Below, one piece after another: positions 6,146 to 26,248 of a DNA stretch of 31,487 nt. The stretch spans positions 1-31,487 of IMG/VR virus record IMGVR_UViG_3300028739_000020, one strand, 5' to 3'. The notes beneath the pieces are model-generated. The model did not search any database. It was not told where the DNA came from and worked only from the letters and a program-made list of their open reading frames with translations. Position 1 is the stretch's first letter, and each line of letters opens with the position of its first letter. Both the position numbers and the translations under genes were made by a program. The DNA comes from a virus.

Positions 6146-6162
6146 AATCAAATCATTTTAAA

Positions 6163-6194
6163 CAAAGATAAGTAAAATTATCTACACTTACAAG
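6163..6194 (-). promoter_or_regulatory. Bacteroidetes-type promoter for the cargo gene unit
   Basis: On the minus strand the sequence reads CTTG, 20 bases, TATCTTTG. This matches the Bacteroidetes primary sigma pattern (-33 TTG element, -7 TAnnTTTG). The -7 box covers 6163-6170, and the ATG at 6145 lies about 18 bases downstream, so the leader would be very short. The site falls between the muzzle-gene terminator and the cargo genes, as expected for a new transcription unit. Confidence 0.75.
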
Positions 6195-6199
6195 TTTTT

Positions 6200-6240
6200 T
6201 ATTAAAAAAATAATAGGAGATAAGTAAAATACTTATCCCC
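6200..6240 (-). terminator. Intrinsic terminator after the muzzle gene
   Basis: Read on the minus strand, an 8-bp perfect stem GATAAGTA/TACTTATC with a 3-base loop is extended by two G-C pairs past one mismatch. A T-rich tract (positions 6214 down to 6204) follows. It begins 8 bases after the TAA of the muzzle gene. Confidence 0.8.
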
Positions 6241-6247
6241 TACCTAT

Positions 6248-9200
6248 TTATACTGTATAGTTTACTACTAAATCATGTAATACAGTTTTATTCTCAGTCT
6301 GTCCACTACCTATTAAACTAAGATATAACCAAGGATTTCTCATCCTATCTACACCAAATCTTCTATGAGAACTACCTGGTCTATTACCTCCTATTCTTCT
6401 TGAAGTATCAGTTGGAATAGTGGCTCTCCATACTCTAAACTTTTGTTTTAAAGTAGATTTTATATTAGCTGTTTCAGTTAATTCATTACTACCAGTCTGA
6501 TACTCATTCCAAACATTTAACATGTCAAATGGTTTTAAATCACTTATCACATTATTAGAATCAAATGTATCAGCTCTAAAACTTATTGTATTAAATACTT
6601 TAGTTCTATGAGGGTCTTTATTAGCAATAACAGTAACCCAAAAAGGTTGTTTAAAATTAAAATACTCTCCATATTTACCAGCATTTTGTTCCCATAAATA
6701 TAAAGTAGTATCTCCATCAGGTACTGTTAAGAAAGGTCTTCTTAATGATAAGAAGGTATCAAAAGCATTAAACATGAATGGAGTAGCTTTATAACTATAA
6801 AAAGATAAAAACTGTTGCATTAATTCTGAATAACCTAAACAATAATCTCCATTTATAAAATATACTATACTATTTACTTTATCATATTGAGATGTAAAAG
6901 TATTGTAAGTACTTGGTAACCAACTAATTTCATTAGTAATATTATTATTAGACCATGAATGGAATCCTAATTTATCAGATAAACACTCAGGTCTATTACC
7001 ATTAAATAGATAAATACCTTTAGTAATATTATCAATAAAATATAAACCAAAATCAGATTGAGTTATACTCCATTTATTTCTAGTTCCTACAGTTGTAGTT
7101 GCATATCTTTTACCATCAACTTTAGCACTATTAGCTATTTCAATAGGTACACCATCTGAAGTATTTACTTGGATTCTACTATTATACTGTATAGTACCAA
7201 TAGCTTTATCTTGGAATACAACTAACTCATTATTTAAATTTCTAATAGCATTAACTGAACCATACACACCATCTAAATCTAAAGTATTAGCTAAAGTTAA
7301 ATTAGTCCATGTATCTATCAAATCTCCTGCTATTTTAGATTTAGTCCATGATATAGTATTAGGAAAATTATCTATATTAAACCTATTATAGTTTAAAGCA
7401 TTATAAGTAAAGAAGTTATTTCTTTGATTATATACTGGATTGAATAAATTAAAATTAATAGGTGTATCTAAAGTATTATCTAAGTTACCTCTATTTTTAT
7501 CAGTTCTACTATCTAAATTTATATGAGTCTCACATAAGAATGATACTACTTCTGATACTGAATTTACATTAGTTAATCCTGCTGTATAAGTCTTTAAACA
7601 ATCATATCTTTGTATAAAAGTATCTCCCTCAGTATAATTAACTGTAAGAGTAGTTAAAGGTAATCCTGTAGTACCAAATAAAGATATTGGTTCACCACAA
7701 GGTAACCATGTATTAGCTTCAAAAGCTTCTTGAGTTTGTCCACCAAATCTATTAGCTATATCTTCATCATCTCTATATAATTCAGCAATCCATAATCCAC
7801 TCTTTCCACTATTAGCTATAGTTATATCATCTTGGCTCATAGTATAAGCATCTGTTCTCCAAAATGAATTTACAGAATCTGTACTAACTTTATTATAACC
7901 ATTTAAACTTGGAGCAATAGTTTGTACTCCACTATTCCATTTAAATCCAAATATAGCATGAGGTGTAGATTTATATTGTATTCTTACAGGCTCATAACCT
8001 ATCTTATAATCTAATGGTAATTCATCATCATTAATAGAATTATCATAAGACATACCACGATTAATAGTATCTATAACACCATTAAAAGCAGCTGTAATAG
8101 GGAAACTACTCCACTTACCATAATCAGTATTATTAGTATTAGGCATTATGATTTTATCCACATTACCTTTATATACTATTTTTGAATTATCTTCTTCAGG
8201 TGAACCTATTTTAGTAATTACACTTTCTGTTGAATTGAATACACTTATATCAGTTATTCCATGAGTAGGAGTCCAAATATTAGCAGATTCTAAATAAGAA
8301 TTATAACCTGCATATCTTAAGTTAGACATTAATTTACTAGCTAACTTAGCACTATAATTAACAACAGATACAGGTTCATTATTTAATGACCTTTCAGCTT
8401 GCCAAGGATAAACCATAAAATCAACTATAGTTCTACCGTGGTCTGTAGCACTATAATCATCATTTTTACTTCTTACAATCCTATCTTTCCATGCTGGTGA
8501 AGTTATTAAAGATTTATAACCATAAGTACTATAGTTTCTGATACCTAAGTTATTAAATCTAAATCCTCCTACATCTTGTTTAGGAGCAGTAGAAGTAGTG
8601 ATACTTAAATTAGAATTGAATCCTGTTATATTAGTAAGCCCTATAATTCTTAATTTAAAATTATTATTCTCAATATTTTTTATATTATCATCAAATTCTA
8701 TCTCAGGAGAATTTAAAGTCATTACTGACTGGTCTATATAAAAATTAGAAGGATAGTAACTTACAAAATCAGTTGTTGCTACATCTCCCAAATAATGTTG
8801 AGTAGGAGTGCCATCATTACACTGAATCTCTCCATTAGTACTACGCCATCCTGGTATACCATAACCATGTCTAAACTCATTCCATTGACCATTATTAATA
8901 GGATTAATATTAGGTTCAACTGGTCCATTAACTATAGGTCTTGAGAACCATGAAGCTATATTATCTACTGAATTATTATATCTATCTCCTACATTAAATA
9001 GAGTAGGATTTAATATTCCTTGTGCTATTACAGACCTATCATTTAATTGTGGATAAACCACAACACCTCTAACCCTAACATATCCTAATCCTATAAGGGT
9101 GGAAATTAAAGTAGAGTCATTAATAGTATAGAATGCTTTAGAACCTTTAACTACTACACCATTTGAGTCTATATAAGTTTGAGGATTAACAGTATTTAAT

Positions 9201-10426
9201 ACATCATTAATCCATATAGTTTCAGACCATTTACCTGATGTATGTTGAGCTTGTATACCAAATCTATAAGTGTCTCTAACTTTAAAAGATTTCTGAGAAG
9301 AGTAAGCATCAGTAGATACATTATCTATAAAAGTTCTATTTCTTAATGTTTCAGGTTTATAACCATAAAAAGAGTTATTAGACTCTTCATAGTATAAATT
9401 CTTTTCACTAAAAGTAATTGTTCTATCAATAATATTTAAAGTTTGTAGAGTTGGTCTATTAATCTTGATATTACCTATAAATAAAGTATTATCTTTTTGA
9501 GCTATATTATCAATTATTAATTCTTCTCCACCAACATATAATAAATCTGAGGGAGTAATAGTACTACCAGCTGTATTAGTATCAGTATAATCAATTATAC
9601 CTGTTAGGTTATCTTTAACTGAGATATCAGTTACTTTTCTCACAGTTGGAGTTGAATCTATACTAGTTCTTATTATACTATATATTCTTAAATAATCAAA
9701 TTTAGTATCTAAGTTAGTAATGTTAATATGGAAACTATTACTTATTTTTTCTTCAGCAGTACCACCTCTTTCTTTAAATGTACTATAATACAAAGGAGAT
9801 ACATAAAATATATTAGTTTCTTGTGCATATTGATTATAATAAGTAAAAGCATATTGTACTGTTCCTGATGGAAACATACCATCACTTAAATCATTCTTAA
9901 CAATACTAACTACTTCTTTTAGTTGTAATGGTTGTACTGTATCAAATGATGTATTAGTATATACTTTAGAAGATACTATATTTACAAATCTTAGTTGATT
10001 CTTAGAATCAGTCCAATATACTTTTATAATATCTTCATTCTCATAAAAAGATAAAGTTTCTATAGGATGCTCATTATCAAGATTTAAGTTACCATTAAAT
10101 AACTGTACTCCTTTAATTACACCACTCTCTTTATAAATTTTATAAATTGTATCACCTAATGTAGTACTATGAGTAAATATAATTAATATATCTTTTACAA
10201 TAGCATATCCTAAAGCATCTCCTTTAAGTGTTATCTTATTATCATCTACATCAGATATATCTACTATCTTATTACCCTTCTCAGTAGATAAAGCTAATAA
10301 TGTATTAGAATCTCTTGATATAAGAGACATATTCATATTTTCATATGCAAATTCACTACTGAATGAAGATTCAGTAATATCTCTTTGCATACCTCTAATT
10401 TTAAATTGCATTGCATCTAACTGCAT
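6248..10426 (-). CDS. Tail muzzle (stabilization) protein of crAss-like phage
   Basis: At 1392 residues this is the largest gene here. Size, position and the N-terminal block QFKIRGMQRDITES followed by ENMNMSLISRDSNTLLAL fit the crAss-like protein usually annotated as tail stabilization protein, which forms the distal muzzle of the short tail. The C-terminal block (GNRPGSSHRRFG, DRMRNPWLYL, ending HDLVVNYTV) is also typical. Between them lie Asn/Thr/Tyr-rich beta-looking segments, including several GIYLFNGN or QFLSFYSY-like strands suggestive of a propeller fold. The start used is ATG 10426 (MQLDAMQFK); M6 is an equally plausible start because homologues often begin near MQFK. It lies 5 bases after the adaptor gene stop and is followed by a strong terminator. 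Assignment to the muzzle family is confident; domain roles are inferred. Confidence 0.9.
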   Translation of the reverse strand: MQLDAMQFKIRGMQRDITESSFSSEFAYENMNMSLISRDSNTLLALSTEKGNKIVDISDVDDNKITLKGDALGYAIVKDILIIFTHSTTLGDTIYKIYKESGVIKGVQLFNGNLNLDNEHPIETLSFYENEDIIKVYWTDSKNQLRFVNIVSSKVYTNTSFDTVQPLQLKEVVSIVKNDLSDGMFPSGTVQYAFTYYNQYAQETNIFYVSPLYYSTFKERGGTAEEKISNSFHINITNLDTKFDYLRIYSIIRTSIDSTPTVRKVTDISVKDNLTGIIDYTDTNTAGSTITPSDLLYVGGEELIIDNIAQKDNTLFIGNIKINRPTLQTLNIIDRTITFSEKNLYYEESNNSFYGYKPETLRNRTFIDNVSTDAYSSQKSFKVRDTYRFGIQAQHTSGKWSETIWINDVLNTVNPQTYIDSNGVVVKGSKAFYTINDSTLISTLIGLGYVRVRGVVVYPQLNDRSVIAQGILNPTLFNVGDRYNNSVDNIASWFSRPIVNGPVEPNINPINNGQWNEFRHGYGIPGWRSTNGEIQCNDGTPTQHYLGDVATTDFVSYYPSNFYIDQSVMTLNSPEIEFDDNIKNIENNNFKLRIIGLTNITGFNSNLSITTSTAPKQDVGGFRFNNLGIRNYSTYGYKSLITSPAWKDRIVRSKNDDYSATDHGRTIVDFMVYPWQAERSLNNEPVSVVNYSAKLASKLMSNLRYAGYNSYLESANIWTPTHGITDISVFNSTESVITKIGSPEEDNSKIVYKGNVDKIIMPNTNNTDYGKWSSFPITAAFNGVIDTINRGMSYDNSINDDELPLDYKIGYEPVRIQYKSTPHAIFGFKWNSGVQTIAPSLNGYNKVSTDSVNSFWRTDAYTMSQDDITIANSGKSGLWIAELYRDDEDIANRFGGQTQEAFEANTWLPCGEPISLFGTTGLPLTTLTVNYTEGDTFIQRYDCLKTYTAGLTNVNSVSEVVSFLCETHINLDSRTDKNRGNLDNTLDTPINFNLFNPVYNQRNNFFTYNALNYNRFNIDNFPNTISWTKSKIAGDLIDTWTNLTLANTLDLDGVYGSVNAIRNLNNELVVFQDKAIGTIQYNSRIQVNTSDGVPIEIANSAKVDGKRYATTTVGTRNKWSITQSDFGLYFIDNITKGIYLFNGNRPECLSDKLGFHSWSNNNITNEISWLPSTYNTFTSQYDKVNSIVYFINGDYCLGYSELMQQFLSFYSYKATPFMFNAFDTFLSLRRPFLTVPDGDTTLYLWEQNAGKYGEYFNFKQPFWVTVIANKDPHRTKVFNTISFRADTFDSNNVISDLKPFDMLNVWNEYQTGSNELTETANIKSTLKQKFRVWRATIPTDTSRRIGGNRPGSSHRRFGVDRMRNPWLYLSLIGSGQTENKTVLHDLVVNYTV

Positions 10427-10431
10427 AACTA

Positions 10432-11124
10432 TTAATGTTTAAAATTTTCTTTTCTACCATTATTAATAAACCCTTCTTGGAATTGATGGTCTCTTATTAT
10501 AAGAGTTCTAAATGAATTAAATAAAGTCTCAGCTTTAGATAAATCAAGTCTTTTAAATTCATTCTCACAAGAACCTACGGCAAATGCATATTGAGATTGA
10601 GTATTAGCTAATACATTTTGATGTAATTTACCTAAATCATAAAGTATAGTAAATACTTGTACTTTTATATAAGCTTCTAAAGCTCTGGTAAAATTACTAT
10701 TATCTGGTAACATAGGGAATCCATTACTATCTGTTAAGAGTGCTCTGTAAGATAATATTATTTCTCCATCACTCATTGAGGTAACTATATTACCTCCCTG
10801 TATAACAAAAGTAGCTTCATTACCTACATCAGGGTTATTTGTAGTAGTACCATCTTGTAATAAGTGGAAACTATCACTAGAGTATCTAATCCTTCTATTA
10901 TTAAAAGATATTTGGATAGTATCTATCCAATCTAAAGGTAATGTACCTATATAATTAGTAACAGGAATTGTAACTACTTTATCTACAAACATTCTTGGTA
11001 CTCCTACTATTCTAAAGAAATCAACTGTATAATCCACTACAGTTTCAAGAGTTAAATCAGCTAATAGAGGATGCCTCATTAACTTATCCATTATAACTCT
11101 TATACTTGTATATTGTTCAGCCAT
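10432..11124 (-). CDS. Ring/head-tail adaptor protein (P22 gp4-like type)
   Basis: This 230-residue protein has a helical N-terminus (VIMDKLMRHPLLADLTLETVV, residues ~9-29) and a beta-rich middle with an LPLDWIDTIQ strand, GGNIVTS and DGEIILSYRA. A helical C-terminal half (residues ~145-215) follows. A helical bundle with a beta insertion, preceding the muzzle gene, is the pattern of tail adaptor or ring proteins under the portal in short-tailed phages, often linked to P22 gp4 or T7 gp11. It sits 10 bases after the IHF-like gene and 5 bases before the muzzle gene. I infer a dodecameric ring component of the tail barrel; which ring number it is cannot be read from sequence. Confidence 0.75.
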   Translation of the reverse strand: MAEQYTSIRVIMDKLMRHPLLADLTLETVVDYTVDFFRIVGVPRMFVDKVVTIPVTNYIGTLPLDWIDTIQISFNNRRIRYSSDSFHLLQDGTTTNNPDVGNEATFVIQGGNIVTSMSDGEIILSYRALLTDSNGFPMLPDNSNFTRALEAYIKVQVFTILYDLGKLHQNVLANTQSQYAFAVGSCENEFKRLDLSKAETLFNSFRTLIIRDHQFQEGFINNGRKENFKH

Positions 11125-11134
11125 AGCTTATTAA

Positions 11135-11671
11135 TTATTTAAATGTAAAAGCATCAATAGTTCCACTACTTGCTGCTTGAAATATTTTCTTTTTTAATTC
11201 TCTATTTATATGTAACATATAAAAAGATTTGTTTGTATATAGAGCCTTACTTTTATTATAGATGACTCTATAATTTTCTTTAGACTCTATTTTTATAAGA
11301 GTTTTATTTGCTTTAGCTTCTTCATCATCATACCAAAGTTTTAATGTAGAATCCCAATCAATAGGAGCTTTATAAACTAATCTACCATCCTCAGATATTT
11401 TAGGTTCTAACTTATACTTTCTTAGTTCTATTCTACCCATCCTTTCAGGTAAATTAATATCTTCTCCATTAGCTAAAAAATCTGCTAACATATTATTAGT
11501 TTCTCTAATAATGGCAAAGTATTGACTTTCAGTTAATACAAACTTTTTATGCTTAGGTTTATGCTTTCTATAAAATTTATAAGCATCATATACACCATAA
11601 GAGTTGACTATTTTATGAACTCTATTAGAAGATACTTTCTTCAAATCTTTTATAAACTCACTATATTTCAT
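11135..11671 (-). CDS. IHF/HU-like protein of the tail module
   Basis: This is a 178-residue basic protein. Residues ~48-85 hold a helix (ESQYFAIIRETNNMLADFL) followed by NGEDINLPERMGRIELRKY. That mimics the HU/IHF layout of helix, G-x-x-[VI]-x-LP, G-[RT]-[FI] and basic strand. Crassvirales genomes are known to carry genes annotated as IHF subunits within the virion block. The C-terminal half (residues ~95-178) is longer than in HU (about 90 residues) and includes Lys/Tyr-rich strands. The ATG overlaps the TAA of the preceding ring gene (TAATG), suggesting translational coupling. It could be a ring or internal DNA-contacting virion protein using the HU fold rather than a free nucleoid protein. 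Confidence 0.65.
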   Translation of the reverse strand: MKYSEFIKDLKKVSSNRVHKIVNSYGVYDAYKFYRKHKPKHKKFVLTESQYFAIIRETNNMLADFLANGEDINLPERMGRIELRKYKLEPKISEDGRLVYKAPIDWDSTLKLWYDDEEAKANKTLIKIESKENYRVIYNKSKALYTNKSFYMLHINRELKKKIFQAASSGTIDAFTFK

Positions 11672-12429
11672 TATGCTCCTGCTTGTGCCCTTGAATAAGG
11701 ATTTTGTAAATTATTTTGTGCTTTCTGATGTGTATTATATTCATCAGCAGCATCATCTTTAGCATTATTAGTAGTATCAGATACTCTAAATTGGGAAGGT
11801 AATAATTCTTTTTCTACCATATCAATTAATATAGAAACTAAATTAGCTTCAAAAGGACATTCAATATCTAAAGGGTCTTTAAATTTACCATTAGAATCTA
11901 AATCAAATTCATTTACTTTAGTAGGGTCCTCAAATATAGTAGTTATTTCTATAGAAGTCAATTCAGTTAATCTACTATCTCCTGATTTTAAATACAAATA
12001 ACCATCAGGATTAATAGAACCATATACTACTTGAGTAAGAAATTTATTAATACCAACATATTTAAATCTATCTTTATTAACATAAGTAATATTACTCCCC
12101 CAGTAATCATTTGGAGATGATAAAGTTATAATCCTTTGTCCACCATTAAGATTAATTATTGAGGGTACTTTAGATTTGGTTCTCATGTATTGTAAAGCTT
12201 CATCTAATTCTCCTATACTACTAGAGGGAGATGCTTGTAACTCTAATTTAAGAGATTGAAAATTTGTATCAGGTATTTCTTTCTTAACATCAGAATACCT
12301 CTGTTTTAAAATAAGAGGTCTAAATTTATTAATAAGAAATGTTATGTGTTCCTCACCAAATATACTATCATCTGATTCAAGTTTTAATTTATCAATTATG
12401 ATGTATATTAATTCTCTATAAGTCGCCAT
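11671..12429 (-). CDS. Tail ring/structural protein (252 aa)
   Basis: Residues 1-60 are helical (MATYRELIYIIIDKLKLES, then EEHITFLINKFRPLILKQRY), a layout seen in crAss-like ring proteins and other tail adaptors. The middle is beta-rich (GGQRIITLSSPNDYW, then GYLYLKSGDSRLTELTSIEI). The C-terminus (~190-252) returns to helices and ends in an Ala/Asn/Gln-rich tail. It starts 24 bases downstream of a terminator-like hairpin and ends in a TAATG overlap with the IHF-like gene. I infer one of the stacked rings between portal and muzzle. It could alternatively be a tail hub protein. No enzyme motif is visible. Confidence 0.65.
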   Translation of the reverse strand: MATYRELIYIIIDKLKLESDDSIFGEEHITFLINKFRPLILKQRYSDVKKEIPDTNFQSLKLELQASPSSSIGELDEALQYMRTKSKVPSIINLNGGQRIITLSSPNDYWGSNITYVNKDRFKYVGINKFLTQVVYGSINPDGYLYLKSGDSRLTELTSIEITTIFEDPTKVNEFDLDSNGKFKDPLDIECPFEANLVSILIDMVEKELLPSQFRVSDTTNNAKDDAADEYNTHQKAQNNLQNPYSRAQAGA

Positions 12430-12450
12430 ATTATTAATTTAGTTTTAAAT

Positions 12451-12500
12451 AAAAAATCCTTGTGCAAGATAAGAAAAAAATCTTATATACACAAGGATTT
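12451..12500 (-). terminator. Long hairpin terminator after the 406-residue gene
   Basis: A perfect 11-bp inverted repeat AAATCCTTGTG/CACAAGGATTT (12490-12500 with 12454-12464) encloses a second short ATAAG/CTTAT stem. On the minus strand it is followed by TTTTTTATTT. It lies between the 406-residue virion gene and the next ring gene. No clear promoter follows, so it is probably partial. Confidence 0.7.
12464..12495 (-). promoter_or_regulatory. Degenerate promoter-like element inside the hairpin
   Basis: On the minus strand CTTG, 20 bases, TATCTTGC has exactly the spacing of the four good promoters in this window. The -7 box matches TAnnTTTG only in its first part (the last two bases are GC, not TG). 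The -33-like element lies in one arm of the hairpin and the -7-like element in the other. It may be a weak promoter for the ring/muzzle genes or coincidence. Confidence 0.3.
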
Positions 12501-12533
12501 AATTAAATTTATTATACTATGTATAATTTACTC

Positions 12534-13754
12534 TTATACAAGAGCTGCAATAGTTATACCACCTACTGTAATAGCAGCTATAATACTATTAGCTAATGCA
12601 ATTTGAGCTGCATTATTTGCTCCAATAGCAGGTACTACAATAGTAAGATGCTTTTGAGATTTCTGTACATTAGTACCTTCTCCTTGATAGAAATAATCAA
12701 TTTCTATGTAATTATAAGCTACAGTTGGGTCAACCAAATAAGCAGTTTTAATTACATTAGGGAAACCTACATTTCTATATTGGTCACCTCTTTCTCCAAC
12801 AAAGAAATATTCCATATCAGCAGTGATTTTACCATTTAAAACTACATTACTAGATGCACTTTTAACAGAAGTACCCCAAACATAATCACCATCAGCTAAT
12901 GTAATTTTATCACATTGAACTAAATAATTAAGAGGTTGAGATTCTTTAGTACCAAGTGTCCAAGGTTGTTCTACTTCTTCAAGTATAATACCTGTAGTTG
13001 TACCTCCAGTTAAAGTTCTAGCAGCTTCAGTTACTAACACTGTAGCATCTGTACCAGTAATATTTACTAAAGGTGCAGCAGTAGCACTTGCATTTATGAT
13101 AGCTTTTAAATCTGCAATAGTCTTAGCAGCAGCAGTTAAAGCAACAGAGATAGCAGAACCTGTAACAGTTACAGCAGCAGTAGCAGCAGCTACGTCAGTA
13201 ATAGCAAAAGTAATTGCATTACCAGCAGTTCCTACATTATCAGCAGTAACAGTAACACCTGCATTAGAAGTTAATACTATAGAAGCAGCAGTACCATTCA
13301 AAGTTACATTTAACAATGGAATTTTTTCTCTTGACATGTTAAGTACTAAAGAAGCAGCCATAGCTTGATAAAACTGTTCAGCAGTCATACCTGTTGTAGC
13401 ATGTACTACACCATGTTTAAAGTATTGGTCATCAAATGATATACTTCCCCATTCATAGAACTTAACTCTAGTTAAATAATCTTGTCCTGCAAGAGGAGCA
13501 CCACCATTAACATTTGCATCTAAAGCTACAGTGTACTTATTAAGAGGTCTACTCATTTTAGTATACTTAAATGCCTGTGCTTGTGTAACATTAGCAAATG
13601 GAATAGAATCTGTTTTAACAGGACCATCTGCTCCTATATATTTTAAAAATAATTCAGTAGAGTTATTATCTACAGATATAGCACCTACACCTGTTGTCCC
13701 TAAAGAATTTGCGACAAATAAATGTCTTACTTGATTTTCTGAAAATGTTGCCAT
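12534..13754 (-). CDS. Conserved crAss-like virion protein with inserted Ala/Thr/Val-rich domain
   Basis: This is a 406-residue structural protein. Residues 1-148 (MATFSENQVRHLFVA, then NGGAPLAGQDYLTRVKFY and MSREKIPLL) and ~256-406 (TGIILEEVEQPW onward) look like the conserved core that I associate with crAss-like virion proteins encoded after the capsid gene. Residues ~151-255 are an insertion rich in Ala, Thr, Val and Gly, with blocks GTAGNAITF, VTVTGSAISVAL and ADLKAIINASA. This is a small beta domain pattern common in phage tail and capsid decoration proteins. The DNA of the insertion is more GC-rich than its surroundings (about 42 % over 13081-13200). The gene is 31 bases after the 227-residue ring gene and is followed by a strong hairpin. 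It could be an auxiliary capsid protein or a tail-barrel component; sequence alone does not decide. Confidence 0.7.
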   Translation of the reverse strand: MATFSENQVRHLFVANSLGTTGVGAISVDNNSTELFLKYIGADGPVKTDSIPFANVTQAQAFKYTKMSRPLNKYTVALDANVNGGAPLAGQDYLTRVKFYEWGSISFDDQYFKHGVVHATTGMTAEQFYQAMAASLVLNMSREKIPLLNVTLNGTAASIVLTSNAGVTVTADNVGTAGNAITFAITDVAAATAAVTVTGSAISVALTAAAKTIADLKAIINASATAAPLVNITGTDATVLVTEAARTLTGGTTTGIILEEVEQPWTLGTKESQPLNYLVQCDKITLADGDYVWGTSVKSASSNVVLNGKITADMEYFFVGERGDQYRNVGFPNVIKTAYLVDPTVAYNYIEIDYFYQGEGTNVQKSQKHLTIVVPAIGANNAAQIALANSIIAAITVGGITIAALV

Positions 13755-13785
13755 TTTTTAAATTTGGATTAAATTAAACAATTAA

Positions 13786-15476: not shown

Positions 15477-15495
15477 TTTGTTTTTTATTTTTTTA

Positions 15496-15525
15496 TAAAA
15501 AGTAGGGGAGTATTAATCCCCTACT
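15496..15525 (-). terminator. Intrinsic terminator after the major capsid gene
   Basis: An 8-bp perfect stem AGTAGGGG/CCCCTACT with a 9-base loop is the most GC-rich hairpin in the window. On the minus strand it is followed by TTTTTAT. It lies 12 bases after the capsid gene stop. No promoter boxes occur between it and the next ATG at 15476, so some read-through must feed the downstream genes. Confidence 0.85.
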
Positions 15526-15536
15526 AATTAATTTTT

Positions 15537-17027: not shown

Positions 17028-17070
17028 TTCTTATTAATTTTTTTAATCTTGTTTATAAAATACTTTATTA

Positions 17071-18207
17071 TTATACGTCTAATCTTAGACCTATATGTTT
17101 CTCTTTATCTTCAATACCTCCTACAAACTCTAAGTTACCATTAGATAAACTGCTATTATTGATAAGAGTATGCTCAAATTCTTTCATACTCTTTCTATTC
17201 TCAGCTTTAACAGCACCTTTAATTAAGTTATCCATATTTTTAAACCCATCAGTAAGGGTAAAAATAACAGCTACTTTATGAAGGAAATCAGATTTATTTT
17301 CTTTTTGATACTTTTGAATAGCTGTATAGTAATTACCTTCTTCATCTTTAAAAATAGGTTTACTAGCATTATCAAATATTCTCTTTCTTGTATCTTTATT
17401 AAGTACTATATCAGAGAAAGGCTTCTCTGTTTCTAATATCTTTTTTTCTAGCTCAGCAGCTTCTTTTTTAATAGCTTTCTTTTCATTTTCTACTTCAGTT
17501 CTAGCTGCTTTAATAGTATCTTCATACTTACCAACAAAATGTTCTTTATTACTTACTAATGCTTCTAAAGCATCTTCAATATCAGAACCTGAAGCTATTG
17601 ATTTATTTACTTGCTTTTGTGCTCTTTCTTCTGAGAATCCTTTATTAATATAATCTTGAAATATTAATTGTCCTCTAAGTTTAGTAGCTTGCTCAGTTTC
17701 TTCAGAAATAAACTCTTCAGTTAAACCATTTAAATAACTAATAGTATTCTCAAAATATTTAATCTCTGAGGTTTCTACTCCACTATCAAGAGCATCTTTA
17801 ATTCTTTTTTGTGATTCTTCTAGTTTAGACTCTACTTGCTTCTCCATAGCTGTAACAAAAGTTTCAGCATCAGTAACTGTCTTTAAGAAATCATCATCAA
17901 GGTCAGGTAGGACACCTTCATCTTTTAAAGCTTTAGCAAGAGAAGAGTAGGTGTTGGGAGAAGCACTTTGTTTATCTTTATCTTTCTCAAGATTGGTGTC
18001 CTCCTTGTCCTTGTTGTCTTTATCTTCACTAACTACGCTCTCTGATGTTGGGAATAAATTATTCTCATCCACCTCATTAGTTTCTATCTTTTTATCTTTA
18101 TCTTCATCAGAATTATCTACTTTATCTTTATCTTCAAACCCTAATTCAGTTTCATCCATAAAGATATTTTCAATATCTAATTCATCAATTTTATCAAATC
18201 CTGGCAT
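17071..18207 (-). CDS. Scaffold-like acidic coiled-coil protein
   Basis: This is a 378-residue, strongly charged protein without a recognisable enzyme motif. Residues ~20-85 are a disordered Asp/Lys/Glu-rich tail with repeated DKDK units. Residues ~105-260 are predicted helical with heptad-like patterns (VESKLEESQKRIKDALDSG, then EVENEKKAIKKEAAELEKKI). The C-terminal ~100 residues are more globular (FLHKVAVIFTLTDGF). Charge, coiled coils and place immediately before the major capsid gene are the hallmarks of a capsid scaffold. A promoter lies about 30 bases upstream, making this the first gene of the capsid-tail unit. I infer an assembly scaffold. A packaged structural protein is the alternative. 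Confidence 0.7.
   Translation of the reverse strand: MPGFDKIDELDIENIFMDETELGFEDKDKVDNSDEDKDKKIETNEVDENNLFPTSESVVSEDKDNKDKEDTNLEKDKDKQSASPNTYSSLAKALKDEGVLPDLDDDFLKTVTDAETFVTAMEKQVESKLEESQKRIKDALDSGVETSEIKYFENTISYLNGLTEEFISEETEQATKLRGQLIFQDYINKGFSEERAQKQVNKSIASGSDIEDALEALVSNKEHFVGKYEDTIKAARTEVENEKKAIKKEAAELEKKILETEKPFSDIVLNKDTRKRIFDNASKPIFKDEEGNYYTAIQKYQKENKSDFLHKVAVIFTLTDGFKNMDNLIKGAVKAENRKSMKEFEHTLINNSSLSNGNLEFVGGIEDKEKHIGLRLDV
17968..18136. repeat. Low-complexity ATCTTT-type hexamer region in the scaffold gene
   Basis: Imperfect copies of TTTATC/TCTTTA recur in three clusters and encode Asp-Lys runs (KDKDK, EDKDKK) in the N-terminal tail of the scaffold-like protein. It resembles the hexamer tract in the 335-residue gene in unit length and in encoding an acidic dipeptide. 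Confidence 0.7.
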
Positions 18208-18236
18208 AAATTGTTCTCCCTTTTTAATTTATTAAA

Positions 18237-18268
18237 CAAAGATATGTAAAAAACTTAATATATGCAAA
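18237..18268 (-). promoter_or_regulatory. Bacteroidetes-type promoter for the capsid-tail unit
   Basis: On the minus strand TTTG, 20 bases, TATCTTTG is a full match to the -33/-7 pattern. The -7 box is 18237-18244, about 30 bases before the scaffold-like gene ATG at 18207. It is the best promoter in the window and overlaps the terminator hairpin of the preceding unit. Confidence 0.85.
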
Positions 18269-18284
18269 TCATTAAGTTTTTTAC
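18246..18284 (-). terminator. Perfect 14-bp hairpin terminator overlapping a promoter
   Basis: GTAAAAAACTTAAT (18246-18259) and ATTAAGTTTTTTAC (18271-18284) are perfect inverted repeats around an 11-base loop. On either strand the 3' arm ends in a run of six T. It lies 31 bases after the lysin gene stop and ends one base before the -7 box of the next unit; the loop carries the TTTG of the -33 element. Confidence 0.75.
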
Positions 18285-18315
18285 TTATACTTTGAAATTA
18301 TTTATAATACTAATT

Positions 18316-18741: not shown

Positions 18742-18742
18742 A

Positions 18743-19186
18743 TTATTTTGTTATTAATTCAGCTAATAAAGGTGAGTATCTTGGGTCAATTGATGTATTT
18801 TTTAAATCTTCAACATCAATAAGAATAAGTTTAATCACATATTCTTTATCCATATCTTTCTCATACTCTTTCATTAACTCTGTATGTTTCTCTCTTTCTT
18901 CCTCAGATAGTAATTTAAGAGCATCAAAGAAATTAAGATTATCAATTGATTCTTTTGCTTCAATCATTTCTTTTTTCTTTAATTCTAAAGCTTCCCAAGC
19001 TTTCTTTTCCAAGTCTTTTAATTCTTGAGATACACATTTATCTATGATTTCTGTAGCATCTTTTAAAAGAATTAAATTTTGATTCAATCTAGTAGTAAGA
19101 ACTATATTTTTAATGTTTTGTTTATAACAATAGTTTAATAGTTCTGATACTCCTTCAAATAGCATTTTTACTTTGTAATTTTTCAT
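18743..19186 (-). CDS. Small coiled-coil protein, function unknown (147 aa)
   Basis: This 147-residue protein has a short hydrophobic N-terminal third (LLNYCYKQNIKNIVLTTRLN) and then a long charged helix (~55-95, ELKDLEKKAWEALELKKKEM). A second helix follows (SEEEREKHTELMKEYEKDM, ~95-113) and the end is a beta/helix KLILIDVEDL block. The layout resembles small helical proteins encoded between fibre and capsid genes in many phages, sometimes thought to assist assembly, but I cannot assign a family. It lies 23 bases after the 91-residue gene and 1 base before the lysin gene, so it is in the same transcript. Confidence 0.6.
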   Translation of the reverse strand: MKNYKVKMLFEGVSELLNYCYKQNIKNIVLTTRLNQNLILLKDATEIIDKCVSQELKDLEKKAWEALELKKKEMIEAKESIDNLNFFDALKLLSEEEREKHTELMKEYEKDMDKEYVIKLILIDVEDLKNTSIDPRYSPLLAELITK

Positions 19187-19209
19187 CTCCCCTTTTTAAA
19201 ATTAATTAA

Positions 19210-19485
19210 TTATTTACTTATTGTAGTATAGATATCATCTACATCTCCTACTATTAATTTTTTATTATCAATAGTACAATCAGCAGAAAAATTAATATTA
19301 CTATTAGATGTAATCCCTGAAGGATATACATTAAAAGTAGCTATATTTTTACTATCTATAACTGCATTTCCATTTAAACTTAGAACTTTAGAATCCTTTG
19401 ATACATAGTTAAAAGTATAAATAATACTACCTATAATTACATTAGCTTCTGTAGTAGTAGTTTCATTTGTTTTTGTAATTTCCAT
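19210..19485 (-). CDS. Small beta-rich protein, function unknown (91 aa)
   Basis: This 91-residue protein is rich in Thr, Ser, Asn, Ile and Val and is predicted to be nearly all beta. It includes ANVIIGSIIYTFNYVSKDS, NGNAVIDSKNIATFNVY and DCTIDNKKLIVGD. There is no signal peptide, membrane segment or cysteine pattern. It is the first gene after a promoter with the fixed 20-base spacing and precedes the coiled-coil and lysin genes. A small decoration or fibre-associated protein is possible. I do not recognise it. Confidence 0.6.
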   Translation of the reverse strand: MEITKTNETTTTEANVIIGSIIYTFNYVSKDSKVLSLNGNAVIDSKNIATFNVYPSGITSNSNINFSADCTIDNKKLIVGDVDDIYTTISK

Positions 19486-19518
19486 AATCTTTTTTTATTA
19501 TTTTATTAAATTAATATA

Positions 19519-19550
19519 CAAATATAAGAAAAATATTTTATATATACAAG
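19519..19550 (-). promoter_or_regulatory. Bacteroidetes-type promoter for the small-gene/lysin unit
   Basis: On the minus strand CTTG, 20 bases, TATATTTG fits the -33/-7 pattern. The -7 box is 19519-19526, about 34 bases upstream of the ATG at 19485. The 120-base gap it occupies (19486-19605) holds no gene; I see no convincing terminator for the fibre gene there. Confidence 0.7.
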
Positions 19551-19605
19551 CTATTTATTATTTTATTAATACTAAACTGAATATGTATATGTATTTATCA
19601 CTATA

Positions 19606-22311
19606 TTAATATCCCATAGCTAACCAGTTACCAGTATTTGTCTTTCCATACTCATTAAAGTAGAAACTAGATAGGGTTAAACTAGTTATAGAGAATGCTT
19701 CTGTATTATTGTTTGATATATTGCTACCACCTATATAGAATACTCTTGTAGTAAATGCAACTGGGAAATAAACTGTATTGTTTGCTGTTGCTTGTCCCCA
19801 TTGTATTATGAATCCATTACTAAGTTTCTGATATCCATTTGTAACATAACTTGCTGCAGAACTTGCTAAATAACCAGCTGATGTCCAAGGAGTACCAAAT
19901 GCTGTTTGTAAACTAGCAATATTTCCACTATGAAATATCTGTTTCCAAGTACCTTGATTGCCATTTATATCGCGACCTCTAAATGCAATCTCCTCTTGAC
20001 CACTAGCACTATCATTACCAAAAGCAATTTGAGAGCCATAACTATTAGCATTAGTTGAATACCAATTAAAATTCATAACAAATCCATCGAATGCAGCACT
20101 GTTAAATGTAGGTATACCAGTAGTCCCAACTCCATATTGGGCAAATTGGATTGAATTACCATTTGATGTATAGAATGTGTTTAGGTTTGTTATAGCTGTA
20201 CCTAGACTAATACCATTTGCACTTCCTGCATAACCTGCACTGCCTGCTGTAGATGCATAGTTTACTGATTGTGCACCAATAGAACTACTATCAATAACTG
20301 TTTTAGTTCCTAATTTTAAAGTTATATCGCTTGCCCCTTGAAATGCTTGTCCTGAAACTTGGTCAAATTTTAAAATATGTCCATTTTCATTTCCAAAACC
20401 CCATATACCTGCACCTACCCAATTTCCTGTAAGTATAGCAACATTAGAGTAAGTTGCTGTTGTCATATTAAGCCAATTAGAACCAGTTATATTTAGTGAA
20501 CCACTTAATGAACCACCTGTTAAAGGTAAATAATTAGATGGTGAAAAATTTTTAGTTGTCCATGCTTTTGTTGTACAAGTTGCAGTAACATTTAAAAAAG
20601 ATGTTGAAAATGATACTCCTATACTATTTTTCCAATTAGTAGTAGATGCTGCATAACCTAAAATAATATCTCTTACTGATACTTGTGGGTAAGACCATGT
20701 TGTAGAAGTTTCACCTATATAAATCACAAAGTTAGTCCCATTATGACCTAATCTAACTGTATAATCAGCACCATATACTATAGCAAATGGACTATTAGCC
20801 CATGTATTCCCAGTATAGGTATATCCACCAACTTGAACAGAAAAGCTAGTATCAGCAGCATAGTTATAAACATCTATCCACATGCTTGTCATAGTAGCAC
20901 CTATTGAAGCAGGTAGAGTTATAGTTATTGCTCCTGTAAAACCTCCATTAGATGTTATAAATAATCCCCCATTTGGAGATGACATATAATAGTCACTTTT
21001 AAATAAGCCACCAGTCCCTGTTACACTACCACTTACATTTATAGTAGCTGACTGTTGAGAGGTTTGATTCCAAATATATGCATTGACTCCACTTGGTATA
21101 TCAGCTGATTGTAAATATCTGAATGATGGATTACCTGCACTTCCATTAGGTGATGCATATACCATATTAGCAGTTTGACTACCTAGTGCATTTGTTATTT
21201 GTGAACTTGTTATGCTACTAATATAATTATTAGGATTGGTAGCATTATATGGAGTAAAACCTAAAGCTGTAGTAATTTGACTTGAGGTAATACTAGTTAG
21301 ATATCCCCCATAGTTTCCTAAATTATTAGTAAATTGGGATAACTGTGTGGGGAAGTCTAATACTTGTGATTTAGTTATACTAATTCCTGTAGACTTATTC
21401 CAAGCAGTAAATATGGGGTCAGTCTCGGTATATGAAGTAAGGTAACTTCCAACTGGTTGATATATTCCACTATGGCTATGGTCACCATAAGCTGCTGTAA
21501 CATGACTAGTACCAAATCCAGGAAATGTAACTTTAGCATTAAAAACTAAAAAGTCTGTATAAGTAAGTAATCCTGTTGTTGTACCATTAGCTGTATATTG
21601 TGCAGCTCTAGCCATTGTATCAGTATACTGAGTAGGAATAGTAGGAAAATTAACCCATTGTTTTAATCCATTAAAGTATTGATTACTATTACCTAATCCT
21701 ATAATTCTTTCATAGTTACTATTAATATAACTAGAACTATAAGTTTTAGTTAAACTAACTTGAGTATCATCTAATAATAATGTAGGGTCACCCGCAGGAC
21801 CTTGTGCATATACACCAGTATCTGTAGTACCAATAAACCAATTACCATTAGTCCCAATATTAGGACTTATACCTGCTATACCATTAGCAGAAATACCTGT
21901 ATCTAATTGACTAATCCACCAATTACCATCTTGTATATAAGGAGTATTACCATCTCTTCCATCAAAATAATCAACATTTTTAACTGGAGTATGTCCATCA
22001 AAATAGTCTTTACCTTTAATTGGAGTATAACCATCTACACCTCTACTACCATCAAAATAATCTACTCCTTTTATAGGAGTATATCCATCTTTTCCTTTTT
22101 GTGCTTTAGTAAAATCATCTAAAGAGCCAGTAAATCCTGCATCTTGAGAAAGTTCAAAAGCAGACTTACCATCTCTACCAGCTGGTCCCCTTTCTCCTAA
22201 ACTTTTCCATCTTATACTATTTGCTTGTATAACATAAGACCTTATGATATTTTTTACAACAACATTATAGGATTGAGTAGTTTGGTTAACTATTATCCTG
22301 AAAGTTTGCAT
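19606..22311 (-). CDS. Collagen-like phage fibre (head or tail fibre, receptor binding)
   Basis: This is a 901-residue modular fibre. Residues ~1-35 are a short N-terminal anchor. Residues ~38-120 are collagen-like (GERGPAGRDGKSAFELS, then three DGYTPIKG/YFDG-type repeats). Next comes a GNWFIG-type segment and a long Ser/Thr/Asn-rich shaft with HSHSGIY (an HxH motif as in metal-binding trimeric fibres). The shaft also carries ETDPIFTAWNKSTG and two SSQIT-x-ALG units. Near residues ~755-815 is a pyocin-knob-like block (AFRGRDINGNQGTWKQIFHSGN). The C-terminus (SNGFIIQWGQATANN to GNWLAMGY) matches the gp53-like fibre tip. It is coupled to the upstream anchor-like gene by TAATG. In crAss-like phages the fibre near the portal gene can be a head fibre, so head versus tail placement is open. 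Confidence 0.85.
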   Translation of the reverse strand: MQTFRIIVNQTTQSYNVVVKNIIRSYVIQANSIRWKSLGERGPAGRDGKSAFELSQDAGFTGSLDDFTKAQKGKDGYTPIKGVDYFDGSRGVDGYTPIKGKDYFDGHTPVKNVDYFDGRDGNTPYIQDGNWWISQLDTGISANGIAGISPNIGTNGNWFIGTTDTGVYAQGPAGDPTLLLDDTQVSLTKTYSSSYINSNYERIIGLGNSNQYFNGLKQWVNFPTIPTQYTDTMARAAQYTANGTTTGLLTYTDFLVFNAKVTFPGFGTSHVTAAYGDHSHSGIYQPVGSYLTSYTETDPIFTAWNKSTGISITKSQVLDFPTQLSQFTNNLGNYGGYLTSITSSQITTALGFTPYNATNPNNYISSITSSQITNALGSQTANMVYASPNGSAGNPSFRYLQSADIPSGVNAYIWNQTSQQSATINVSGSVTGTGGLFKSDYYMSSPNGGLFITSNGGFTGAITITLPASIGATMTSMWIDVYNYAADTSFSVQVGGYTYTGNTWANSPFAIVYGADYTVRLGHNGTNFVIYIGETSTTWSYPQVSVRDIILGYAASTTNWKNSIGVSFSTSFLNVTATCTTKAWTTKNFSPSNYLPLTGGSLSGSLNITGSNWLNMTTATYSNVAILTGNWVGAGIWGFGNENGHILKFDQVSGQAFQGASDITLKLGTKTVIDSSSIGAQSVNYASTAGSAGYAGSANGISLGTAITNLNTFYTSNGNSIQFAQYGVGTTGIPTFNSAAFDGFVMNFNWYSTNANSYGSQIAFGNDSASGQEEIAFRGRDINGNQGTWKQIFHSGNIASLQTAFGTPWTSAGYLASSAASYVTNGYQKLSNGFIIQWGQATANNTVYFPVAFTTRVFYIGGSNISNNNTEAFSITSLTLSSFYFNEYGKTNTGNWLAMGY

Positions 22312-22712
22312 TATAATTTAGTTATAGGGTTAGTTATTTTCCATTGTCCTTTAGCAAATCCAGTGATTTTATCACCACTAGCTAAGGTAATATTAAAGTC
22401 AAAGTCATATGTACCATGAGTTAAAGTGGGTATATGTTCAGGCATAATTATCTTATGTGTAACACTTTGAGTAACACCATTAATTATTTCAGTAGTACCA
22501 ATAACTAGTTTACCATTATCAGTAGAATATATAGCATGAACCATGTTAGATTTAACACAGTTCATAATAATAGAAGCTCCTGTTAAATCAACAGGAATAA
22601 GAGTAGGGTCAACTGACCCTTCTACTGCTATTTCTTCATATACTTCTAATTCTACTCCTGGAAAAGTACTACCCTCAGAAACTACATCAAATATTACTAA
22701 TAAATCATCCAT
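22311..22712 (-). CDS. Fibre-anchor/baseplate-like beta protein (133 aa)
   Basis: This 133-residue beta-rich protein contains the block PVDLTGASIIMNCVKSN (~40-56) and a late block GTYDFDFNITLASGDKITGFAKGQWKI (described here in parts: GTYDFDFNI, then GDKITGF and GQWKIT). That pattern, a DLTGA strand followed by G-x-Y-x-[FY]-D and a final G-x-W/F strand, is common in small proteins encoded just before phage fibres, such as BppU-like N-terminal domains. It ends in a TAATG overlap with the fibre gene and begins one base after the stop region of the membrane coiled-coil gene. I infer that it links the fibre to the capsid or tail. Function is not proven. Confidence 0.65.
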   Translation of the reverse strand: MDDLLVIFDVVSEGSTFPGVELEVYEEIAVEGSVDPTLIPVDLTGASIIMNCVKSNMVHAIYSTDNGKLVIGTTEIINGVTQSVTHKIIMPEHIPTLTHGTYDFDFNITLASGDKITGFAKGQWKITNPITKL

Positions 22713-22713
22713 A

Positions 22714-23067
22714 TTATTTTGCCTTAATATTTATTTTTTTATCACAAGTAAGAGCATTATTACAGGTCATTTTCTCTACAGTATTTTCAAGAGCTTTAAT
22801 CCTATCATCTAACCTATGAACAGTTTTAATTAATTCTTCATTTTGTATTAATAATCTTTTATTATGTTCAGTCATAGTTTTAGATAAAGTATCATAGAAT
22901 TTTATTTCTTCTGTTCTTGTATCTAATTCTATCTTTTTAGTTTCAGCTGTACTTTTAGCAGTATCAGCATCATTTTTTCTAACCTCTGAATCATTTTTTC
23001 TTATACCTACCACATATCCTAGGATAATTAGAAGTGCTGATATTAATCCTCCTATTAGTGTTGTCAT
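22714..23067 (-). CDS. Single-pass membrane coiled-coil protein, possible holin or spanin component
   Basis: Of its 117 residues, 4-22 (LIGGLISALLIILGYVVGI) form one clear transmembrane helix. A charged coiled coil (~25-95, with RKNDSEVRKNDADTAK and HRLDDRIKALENTVEKM) follows. The C-terminus has two cysteines eight residues apart. There is no lipobox. The topology fits an inner-membrane spanin-like or lysis accessory protein. It is next to another membrane coiled-coil gene but separated from the lysin gene by the fibre gene. Assignment to lysis is inference; a DNA-injection or membrane-anchoring role is an alternative. Confidence 0.6.
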   Translation of the reverse strand: MTTLIGGLISALLIILGYVVGIRKNDSEVRKNDADTAKSTAETKKIELDTRTEEIKFYDTLSKTMTEHNKRLLIQNEELIKTVHRLDDRIKALENTVEKMTCNNALTCDKKINIKAK

Positions 23068-23077
23068 GTATCTTTAT

Positions 23078-23725
23078 TTATTTAAATATTTGTATGAATC
23101 TATCTTGGTCTTTTATGATATAAGGATTACTATCTTTAATATTTACTATTATAACCTCTTGTTTCTTCTGAAACCATCTTAATAAAAAGAATTTTTTAGG
23201 AGGGTTAATAGTTTCTTTTTGTCTTGATATAAAAATCTGTTTAGTATTTACAATTGATATAGAGTCAGTTATGATATTAGGATATTGTAATCTTAAATTA
23301 AGAGTATAAAATTTATCTCCAATTATAGTATCTATATCTAAACCTTTAACAAAAGTAGTATCTCTTAAAATAGTAGTATCTTTCTTAGTAAAATGGTCTT
23401 TAATACTCTGCATAGCAATTAAATTTTTATCTTTAATTTTTAGAGCTTTCTTAGTATCATTCAAAGAAACATTTAAAGAATCTTTGCTATCATTTAATTG
23501 GTCTATAGTTAATAAGAAAACTCTTGTATTATTCTTAAGAGTTGAGTTTTCATTACTATATGCCTTATTATTAATAACAGAAGCATTTAAATCTTTCTCA
23601 AGTTTATTAATAGTAGACTTCATTATTACTATAGTTAATAAAGTTATTAATATACCTATAGTACTTATTAAAACTTTCTTATGTTTTAATATAAAATCTT
23701 TAATTAAATTTAAAATTATAATCAT
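23078..23725 (-). CDS. Membrane-anchored coiled-coil protein of Bacteroidales phages, spanin-like
   Basis: This is a 215-residue protein. A transmembrane helix occupies residues ~17-36 (VLISTIGILITLLTIVIM), preceded by basic residues, so the C-terminal part is probably periplasmic. Residues ~38-110 are coiled coil. Then come KKDTTILRDTTFVKG, a short beta domain, ETINPPKKFFLLRWFQKK and NPYIIKDQDRFIQI near the end. This C-terminal block is one I recognise from proteins in crAss-like phages and Bacteroidales prophages (probably the DUF6549 group; the accession is from memory). It follows the portal gene by 8 bases. Topology suggests an i-spanin-like lysis role, but no test of this is visible. 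Confidence 0.65.
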   Translation of the reverse strand: MIIILNLIKDFILKHKKVLISTIGILITLLTIVIMKSTINKLEKDLNASVINNKAYSNENSTLKNNTRVFLLTIDQLNDSKDSLNVSLNDTKKALKIKDKNLIAMQSIKDHFTKKDTTILRDTTFVKGLDIDTIIGDKFYTLNLRLQYPNIITDSISIVNTKQIFISRQKETINPPKKFFLLRWFQKKQEVIIVNIKDSNPYIIKDQDRFIQIFK

Positions 23726-23733
23726 TATATTTA

Positions 23734-26148
23734 TTATTTAGTAGTTTTCTTATTAGCATTCTGTCTCTTAATAGCAATGTCTTGCTTTTTAATATCCATA
23801 TTATCAGCATGAACTTTCTTCTTAAATTGTAAATCATCAATTTTTAATCCATGTTCTAAACTAAATTGTTTCATATCTTCAAACAATTTAGCTTGTGCAA
23901 CTGGGTCATATTCTTGAGTATCTTCCTCTTGGGTTTGTTGTTGTTGACTCTTAGCATTAGCAGTTATAGTAGCAACTGTTATTTTAGTTTCATTATCTCT
24001 TTGATTCATTGAATCTAATAATTGATTACTATTAATAATATTTTGTTGCTTCATTTGCTCAATAGATTGTTCATGTTGTTGTTGAGCTTGCTCAGATTTT
24101 TGTTTATTTTCTTGCATAGCTTGTTCATTCTTTTCTACAATTCTTTGAGTCTCAGCTAATGAAGTAGTAGTATATATCTTCATAATAGTAGAGAAGTCAA
24201 GTGTTTGATTCTGTAATGCTGCTTGAGCTAATGTATCTAACTTAGAAGCTAATTCAGCTGTACCATTAGAATTATCTATAACACAACCATAATCACATTC
24301 AGCAAATTCATCACCATCAATATCCATTAATCTATAAGAAGCATCAGGTAAGATATATTGAAATTTCTTACTTCTACCTTTCATAGCTACTTTAGCTGTT
24401 TCTATAAAACACTCTAAACTTCTTTTTTTAGTATTATCATGTTGTAAGAATAACCATTCAGTTATGTGTGATGATTGTAAATTAGACCTTTCAACTCCTC
24501 CAACTGTTTCTCTATTACTTATTTGTCCCTCTCTTTGTTTAGAAATACCTGCTACTTCAGCCATTTCCATTTTAATAAACTCAAGTAGATTTATATGTTG
24601 TTGAATATAAGAACCTGTTTCAGCATCAATTACTCCCTTAGAAGCATTATTCATTGACCCTGCTAACTTACCTGTAGCTATTCCAATATTACCCTCTTTA
24701 AAACTATCTTTAATAGCTATATGATTAATTTTAGCATAGTATAACCATTTCTCAACATCCCATCCTTTAGGAACTAATGCTAAATCTAACTCAAGTATTT
24801 TACCCCAGTTAGAAGCAATTGCTTTATTTAATCTATCATGAGTAGCATCATACATATAATTATAAGGTTTCATCATATCAACCATTGAGAATGGTCTAGA
24901 ATCATTTAAATTATATAATGTTCCTACTATTCCAAAGTGACATCTTGATGGATTACTTAATCTATTATACTGAACTAATCTAGGTCTCATATTCAAATAA
25001 ATATGTTGTCCTATTTTAGTACCTTCCCAAGCTTCATTAATCCAATAAATACTTTCTTCTTCTCCTTTATTTTTATCTATTGTATAAGTTTCAGGATAAA
25101 ATTTAAAATCAGGTTCACCTGTTTCAGGGTCATAGAATTTTACTTTTTTAATTTTTCTTTTAGACTTCCAATATACTCTAAGTACTTTAATATTACCACT
25201 ATTATCATAGTAATTATTAGTAGCTGATGGTCCTGTAAATAATGCATAACTATCAATTACTACACCTTCTTCTGTAGTACCACTTAAATCATTAACATTA
25301 ATAAAGGCTCTTCTTTCATCTATATTACCCATTTGGTCTGCATAAGCAGCTTGAGGTAAATGTTCAATATAATCCATATCTGCTGGAGATAATGCATCAT
25401 AATAATTATCAATAATTCTACCAGGACTCCAAAAATCTTCAAGCACAATAATATCAGCATCTTCTATTCTGTTAGAGAATCCTGACCTAAATATTCTTAT
25501 TTTTAATGGATTAATTCTTTGAAAGGTTGGTTCTCCTGATACTATATCAGATTGATAAATTTCTTCACCAACACTCATAGCGTCTACAAAACCTGCGTTA
25601 AATGTAGTAGGAATTTCTAATTCTTTAGTATAATGTTGTATTAAAGCATTAGCTCTAATCTCTCTAATATCTTGATACTCATAACTATAATAGTCATTTA
25701 TTTTATCTAGTTCACCATTAAACTGGTCATCTGATAAGCCATTCTTAGATACTAATTTTTTTACATCAGCAAATAATAATTCTTTCTTTTTATCTTCTAT
25801 CTCAGATATAGCATTTGGATTGGTTACTATCATTCTGAAATCAAATCTTCTTTTAGATTCTTCACCTCTAAGAACATTTAATTTAGCATTCATAATAGGA
25901 TAATGAGTAATATGTTCAGGTATAAATCCTGCTTGTATAGAGTCAGGATTTAATACTTGATTCATATCATCTACATTAAGTTTACCATTAAGTAAATCAT
26001 AATTGATTCTTTTATGTATAACAGAGTTTCTTACTAAACTATCAGTAGCAAATGTTCTGTGGTCTGCCCAGTCTAAATGTTTCTTTCTCCATTCTTTATT
26101 TTTTCTTAAGAAGGATATTTGTTGTGGAGGTAAATTATTTTGAAACAT
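23734..26148 (-). CDS. Portal protein, crAss-like
   Basis: At 804 residues it has the usual length of the crAss-like portal. The N-terminal region has the typical RINYDLLNGKLN and a following PIMNAKLNVLRGEE block (~83-97). The central part carries RPRLVQYNRLSNPSRC and PFSMVDMMKPYNYMYD, and the stem region GITKQREGQ-like block (GISKQREGQISNRE, ~535-548). The last ~130 residues are Gln-rich and coiled-coil (QENKQKSEQAQQQHEQ). The portal forms the dodecameric DNA channel at the packaging vertex and binds the terminase and the ring proteins. It lies just after the terminase gene, behind its own promoter, and leads the transcription unit that runs to the fibre gene. Confidence 0.93.
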   Translation of the reverse strand: MFQNNLPPQQISFLRKNKEWRKKHLDWADHRTFATDSLVRNSVIHKRINYDLLNGKLNVDDMNQVLNPDSIQAGFIPEHITHYPIMNAKLNVLRGEESKRRFDFRMIVTNPNAISEIEDKKKELLFADVKKLVSKNGLSDDQFNGELDKINDYYSYEYQDIREIRANALIQHYTKELEIPTTFNAGFVDAMSVGEEIYQSDIVSGEPTFQRINPLKIRIFRSGFSNRIEDADIIVLEDFWSPGRIIDNYYDALSPADMDYIEHLPQAAYADQMGNIDERRAFINVNDLSGTTEEGVVIDSYALFTGPSATNNYYDNSGNIKVLRVYWKSKRKIKKVKFYDPETGEPDFKFYPETYTIDKNKGEEESIYWINEAWEGTKIGQHIYLNMRPRLVQYNRLSNPSRCHFGIVGTLYNLNDSRPFSMVDMMKPYNYMYDATHDRLNKAIASNWGKILELDLALVPKGWDVEKWLYYAKINHIAIKDSFKEGNIGIATGKLAGSMNNASKGVIDAETGSYIQQHINLLEFIKMEMAEVAGISKQREGQISNRETVGGVERSNLQSSHITEWLFLQHDNTKKRSLECFIETAKVAMKGRSKKFQYILPDASYRLMDIDGDEFAECDYGCVIDNSNGTAELASKLDTLAQAALQNQTLDFSTIMKIYTTTSLAETQRIVEKNEQAMQENKQKSEQAQQQHEQSIEQMKQQNIINSNQLLDSMNQRDNETKITVATITANAKSQQQQTQEEDTQEYDPVAQAKLFEDMKQFSLEHGLKIDDLQFKKKVHADNMDIKKQDIAIKRQNANKKTTK

Positions 26149-26169
26149 ATTTTTTTAAATTTTAAAATA

Positions 26170-26201
26170 CAAAGATATGTAAATTTTATGATATATACAA
26201 T
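26170..26201 (-). promoter_or_regulatory. Bacteroidetes-type promoter for the portal-fibre unit
   Basis: On the minus strand ATTG, 20 bases, TATCTTTG. The -7 box is 26170-26177, about 22 bases before the portal ATG at 26148. The -7 box and the bases next to it (TTTACATATCTTTGT) are the same as at the promoter at 18237, apart from the position of the surrounding T tracts. Confidence 0.75.
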
Positions 26202-26210
26202 AAGATAATT

Positions 26211-26238: not shown

Positions 26239-26248
26239 ATTACTAAAT

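Follow-up and report, generated by a model that had tools for sequence, protein, structure and literature searches.

Promoters of the Bacteroidota primary sigma factor, as defined by dRNA-seq in Bacteroides thetaiotaomicron, carry a -7 box of TAnnTTTG and a -33 box of TTTG (PMC7366714). Few viruses of the human gut are as abundant as the crAss-like phages. In the portions of the published accounts available to us, the late genes of crAss001 and phi14:2, including the structural genes, are described as probably read by the host RNA polymerase and the virion polymerase is assigned to the early genes (PMC8375218, PMC10136315), with late genes beginning 30-60 min into infection (PMC8375218). Those portions name no promoter sites for the late genes, and give neither a late promoter sequence nor a hairpin-promoter element. 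A further point of comparison is the recycling of RNA polymerase at terminators. In vitro, the E. coli enzyme remains bound to DNA once it has stopped at an intrinsic terminator, and it is able to begin again close by (PMC6978380), while restart after termination in vivo is said to be not yet demonstrated (PMC6978380, PMC11347151). Recycling has also been argued to be of little benefit to lytic phages, the phages treated being T7, T3, and SP6, which have their own polymerase (PMC11347151).

The window analysed in this study was an entire virus record of 31,487 bases (IMGVR_UViG_3300028739_000020) and is, by its sequence, a 31-kb piece of a crAss-like phage close to Steigviridae. The terminase, portal, and major capsid protein matched crAss-type PHROG families and stood in the typical late gene order of Crassvirales near Steigviridae. 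The gene order of the fragment was that of crAss001, and the capsid region was about 66% identical at the nucleotide level to crAss001, cr106_1, and cr126_1. An 84-kb contig with a 100% identical capsid protein represented the same phage. No Rfam family was found within the 31-kb window.

The original prediction had placed four boxes of the form NTTG-N20-TAnnTTTG on the minus strand, each ahead of a transcription unit. All four were present with the sequences given for them (three TATCTTTG and one TATATTTG), the ranges including one extra 5' base, and three of them were letter-identical in the 84-kb contig, which stops before the fourth. Exact TTG-N20-TATCTTTG matches were found at 26170-26200, upstream of the portal gene (23734-26148), at 18237-18267, upstream of the gene at 17071-18207 that precedes the capsid gene, and at 6163-6193, upstream of the gene at 3419-6151, while the exact TTG-N20-TATATTTG match lay at 19519-19549, upstream of the gene at 19210-19485. 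The 19519 and 18237 promoters were among those identical in the contig, and relatives have sites at the gene equivalent to that behind the 18237 promoter. A fifth promoter on the same strand, TTG-N20-TATCTTGC at 12464-12494 (relaxed match, upstream of the gene at 11671-12429), had been overlooked because its -7 box is TATCTTGC, so that it agrees with the Bacteroidota primary-sigma consensus only in part; among 49 distinct upstream regions of orthologues, 29 had the strict N20 form. The original list was correct in its four entries and incomplete, omitting also an exact minus-strand match within the reading frame of gene 11671-12429 (11931-11961) and the hairpins described below. The in-gene match is probably due to chance, phage coding DNA having no peak at a spacing of 20.

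The pattern TTG-N20-TAnnTTTG occurred 5 times in the window against 0.91 expected, a number that was not attained in any of 100 dinucleotide shuffles and is more than chance would give. According to the ORF table, there were five gaps of at least 90 nt (6152-6247, 12430-12533, 18208-18315, 19486-19605, and 26149-26248), and each contained exactly one site ahead of a gene, with none in shorter gaps. Start codons followed the box by 21-34 nt at four of the five noncoding sites. At the 6163 site the first ATG, 6 nt downstream, opens a two-codon frame only, and the 910-aa gene likely starts at the ATG about 17 nt downstream of the site. An E. coli type sigma-70 reading of the window was rejected (108 matches against 124 expected). 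The box TATCTTGC (window 12464-12471, minus strand) was also seen in the relative L219 and resembles TAnnTTGY, a motif of another promoter class in Flavobacterium psychrophilum (PMC9723704).

Distances of 12 to 29 between TTG and TAnnTTTG were tallied separately for the noncoding and the coding DNA of 11 related genomes. This set excluded four Intestiviridae/Suoliviridae genomes as well as the window itself, whose sites are found again in the 84-kb contig. The spacing was exactly 20 in 83 of the 106 noncoding pairs within 17-23, while the coding DNA of the same genomes showed no peak at 20. Intestiviridae gave weaker, mixed signals at 19 and 20, and one Suoliviridae genome gave no signal at 20. 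With slightly looser letters the N20 pattern was found at 19 places in genome contigs, nearly all from Bacteroidota; an N21 scan of genome contigs and an N23 scan of 41 family genomes each returned 0, and these scans are a merely accidental control because their letters differ from those of the N20 pattern.

For the hosts, counts were made in 400 kb of a Prevotella genome and in 400 kb of a relative's genome from the same Bacteroidales family. The noncoding DNA of one had 32 of 49 pairs at 20, and that of the other had 18 of 52 at 20 and 15 at 19. Since both host-family genomes also peak at 20, this spacing is normal host promoter geometry; the identical 20-base spacing of the original prediction is real and is no peculiarity of the phage. 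The assignment to the Bacteroidetes primary sigma pattern fits accordingly: like Bacteroides sigma-ABfr promoters (PMC7366714), the phage sites have the -7 TAnnTTTG, a -33 TTG or TTTG, an AT-rich spacer, and CA past the -7 box. They differ in an extra conserved ACTTA and in being often fused to a hairpin. The ACTTA, located at -10 to -6 before the TTG and again just before the -7 box, about 30 bp apart, was absent from the host promoter set, and may belong to the hairpins or act as a signal of its own. With the 20-base geometry, late promoters in crAss-like genomes can be located by a simple rule.

Of 66 distinct relatives, 49 had a strict site ahead of the portal gene. Across eight complete Steigviridae genomes, sites preceded 41 of 384 late-strand genes and 12 of 483 opposite-strand genes (odds ratio 4.7, p = 6e-7). 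Seven of the 12 other-strand sites preceded the largest RNA-polymerase gene (gp50 of crAss001), one per genome, and two preceded a 472-473-aa gene (the RNA-binding protein Gp96 in crAss001 and a gene of the same length in cr106). This late-strand preference and the literature support, short of proof, the original suggestion that late genes are probably read by the host RNA polymerase, a polymerase that we infer in agreement with what is already proposed in the available text on crAss001 and phi14:2. Host-type promoters alone are no explanation for the onset of late genes at 30-60 min. The interpretation was largely expected, and the less expected result is the fusion of promoters with hairpins.

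The clearest fusion, termed class B, was found upstream of gene 11671-12429, a virion-structure gene. An inverted repeat on the minus strand, AAATCCTTGTG..CACAAGGATTT (12454-12500), encloses the entire promoter, so that the -33 to -7 region forms the inside of the stem and a T-run comes next; with the T-run, which extends to 12447, the element spans 12447-12500. The RNA fold of 12430-12540 had a free energy of -27.7 kcal/mol (z = -5.95, 0/200 shuffles). In the hairpin-score test, in which a terminator-like score had to exceed the 5% shuffle level, the entire promoter lay inside a passing hairpin at 23 of 26 nonredundant orthologous sites of this gene. With any class of hairpin admitted, 24% of portal sites and 12% of host promoters passed. 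At the 8-nt tail position, T made up 70% at class B sites and 39% at portal promoters (p = 8e-12).

The flanks of the class B element change together across relatives (CTCTTG..CAAGAG, CCCTTG..CAAGGG, GACATTG..CAGTGTC, ACTGTTG..CAGCAGT, and others). When the 5' flank of one species was paired with the 3' flank of another, the mean stem was 5.7 bp against 9.3 bp for true pairs (z = 14.4, 0/500). For the named structure, 99.1% of cells were paired in the 13 sequences of one register against 76.6% in shuffles, and slid versions paired 41-56%, a count that is favoured because complementarity itself was used to assign each sequence to a register; the flank-crossing test is independent of that assignment. 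The covariation score was 0.672 against 0.204 in shuffles, with 26 cells, in pairs outside the boxes, changed on both sides, and a second register of 7 sequences agreed with the first. These controls leave shared ancestry in, and the negative controls were the same boxes at the portal gene and in hosts, where the class B stem was absent (z = -1.2 at portal promoters and z = -0.2 at host promoters). A dimeric operator reading of the repeat was rejected, as the arm letters change while the pairing is kept. In the distant relatives L203, L206, L207, L209, and L211, the -33 TTG upstream of the orthologue is lost and a hairpin (e.g. GGCTCA..TGAGCC) stays, with a TAnnTTTG-type -7 box in or beside its 3' arm.

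A second arrangement, class A, was confined to a minority of sites. At the 18237 site, an AT-rich hairpin on the minus strand, GTAAAAAACTTAATG..TATTAAGTTTTTTAC (18246-18284), has the -33 TTG in its loop and a T-run in the spacer; its RNA fold gave z = -2.9, with 3 of 200 shuffles at least equally stable. Class A calls were made with a shuffle threshold, which replaced an initial scan that had included weak AT-only stems. The class was enriched in genomes pooled without the class B gene (z = 7.4) and at portal genes (z = 4.6), while the value in host promoters was not significant (z = 1.6). At the 6163 promoter, a separate terminator-like hairpin with a T-run (6204-6240, minus strand) lies upstream of the -33 box, with its end about 10 nt away from it. 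The 19519 and 26170 promoters had no clear hairpin in the initial scan, which scored the identical sequence as it occurs in the 84-kb contig.

Both classes have the stable RNA stem followed by a T-run that is expected of an intrinsic terminator. The usual loop of 3-8 nt and G-C rich stem were not seen, the class B loop being about 28 nt, some of these loops with inner pairs, and none of the hairpin promoters of the window was called when terminators were scanned for with standard settings (loop 3-8, at least 3 G-C pairs). Because of this long loop, and because the standard scan calls neither of the two window elements, the elements are called terminator-like rather than standard terminators.

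Taken together, host primary-sigma promoters of the sigma-ABfr type probably start each late unit, many of them merged with intrinsic-terminator-like hairpins (probability about 0.7). Comparison of the relatives demonstrated, at the level of sequence, that promoter boxes, spacing, position, and pairing are conserved together with a T-rich tail. The best reading of class B is a combined terminator and promoter that would insulate late units from one another; the fused element is strongly conserved at a single gene boundary, with a putative terminator function. By such a merger, the same 50-60 bp would both close one late unit and open the following one. RNA arriving from upstream would fold the hairpin and transcription would stop at the T-run, which in class B covers the expected start site and in class A is the spacer itself, the -33 TTG lying in the hairpin loop. 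The next transcript would have its start at the 3' arm or immediately beyond it, and would therefore be without the hairpin. No overlapping terminator-promoter element in these phages was found in the literature searched, which lacked most subscription journals.

The pairing might have a simpler origin, in that the sites would be plain host promoters, and the hairpins would arise as a by-product because the DNA is AT-rich and because TTGCA and TTTGCAA are partly self-complementary. The TTG can pair with CAA past the -7 box in any such promoter, this pairing supplies 3 of the 9 class B pairs, and many sites have no hairpin. Against this, the 26 cells that changed on both sides lie outside the boxes, and no class B stem is present at portal and host promoters, whose boxes are the same, so the by-product account is unlikely overall and already disfavoured for class B. 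The hairpin might instead be an RNA processing site (e.g. for RNase III) or a stabilising 3' end of the upstream mRNA, as would suit its presence only in RNA arriving from upstream and the long loops with inner pairs. The T-run right behind the 3' arm is a terminator feature for which processing has no need, and processing is judged quite improbable as the explanation, the two roles not being exclusive.

The early promoters of coliphage N4 are hairpins. The repeat could in the same manner act as DNA, either as an extruded hairpin for the phage virion RNA polymerase or as a cruciform that controls the promoter, and Crassvirales resemble N4 in that they carry a giant virion polymerase (PMC10136315). 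That polymerase is assigned to early genes in the published accounts (PMC8375218, PMC10136315) and the genes here are late. The class B loops of about 28 nt also depart from the N4-type promoter, which has a 5-7 bp stem and a 3-nt loop and serves early genes, and the T-run on the RNA-like strand suggests RNA, all of which makes a DNA hairpin highly improbable.

Within the preferred reading of a combined terminator and promoter, host polymerase released at the T-run would already sit on the next promoter and could, speculatively, restart quickly. That the element evolved for this purpose, the hairpin halting host polymerase atop the promoter of the following late unit and a limited polymerase pool thereby passing from unit to unit, is a tentative and rather doubtful proposal; if true, termination and reinitiation would here be coupled in a natural and conserved element. 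Similar to recycling termination (PMC6978380, PMC11347151), a terminator and the next promoter lie within reach of a retained polymerase. Different from it, the promoter boxes here are inside the hairpin and the arrangement is kept by covariation. If read by host polymerase, crAss-like late genes are also a different case from T7, T3, and SP6. The promoter-in-hairpin arrangement provides a compact natural test of whether a terminator-released polymerase restarts at an overlapping promoter.

Some further sites were recorded. Polymerase-gene promoters with N20 spacing were located on the opposite strand at 64785 in crAss001, 64295 in cr85, 12779 in cr126, 62755 in DAC15, 63654 in cr106, 40412 in cr128, and 39939 in cr116. 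In crAss001, a host-type promoter with 20-base spacing (1626-1656) stood directly ahead of the tRNA cluster. In the window, intergenic terminator-like hairpins with no adjoining promoter box were found at 15495-15525 and 29468-29498, and the former was also called by the standard terminator scan (15501-15525).
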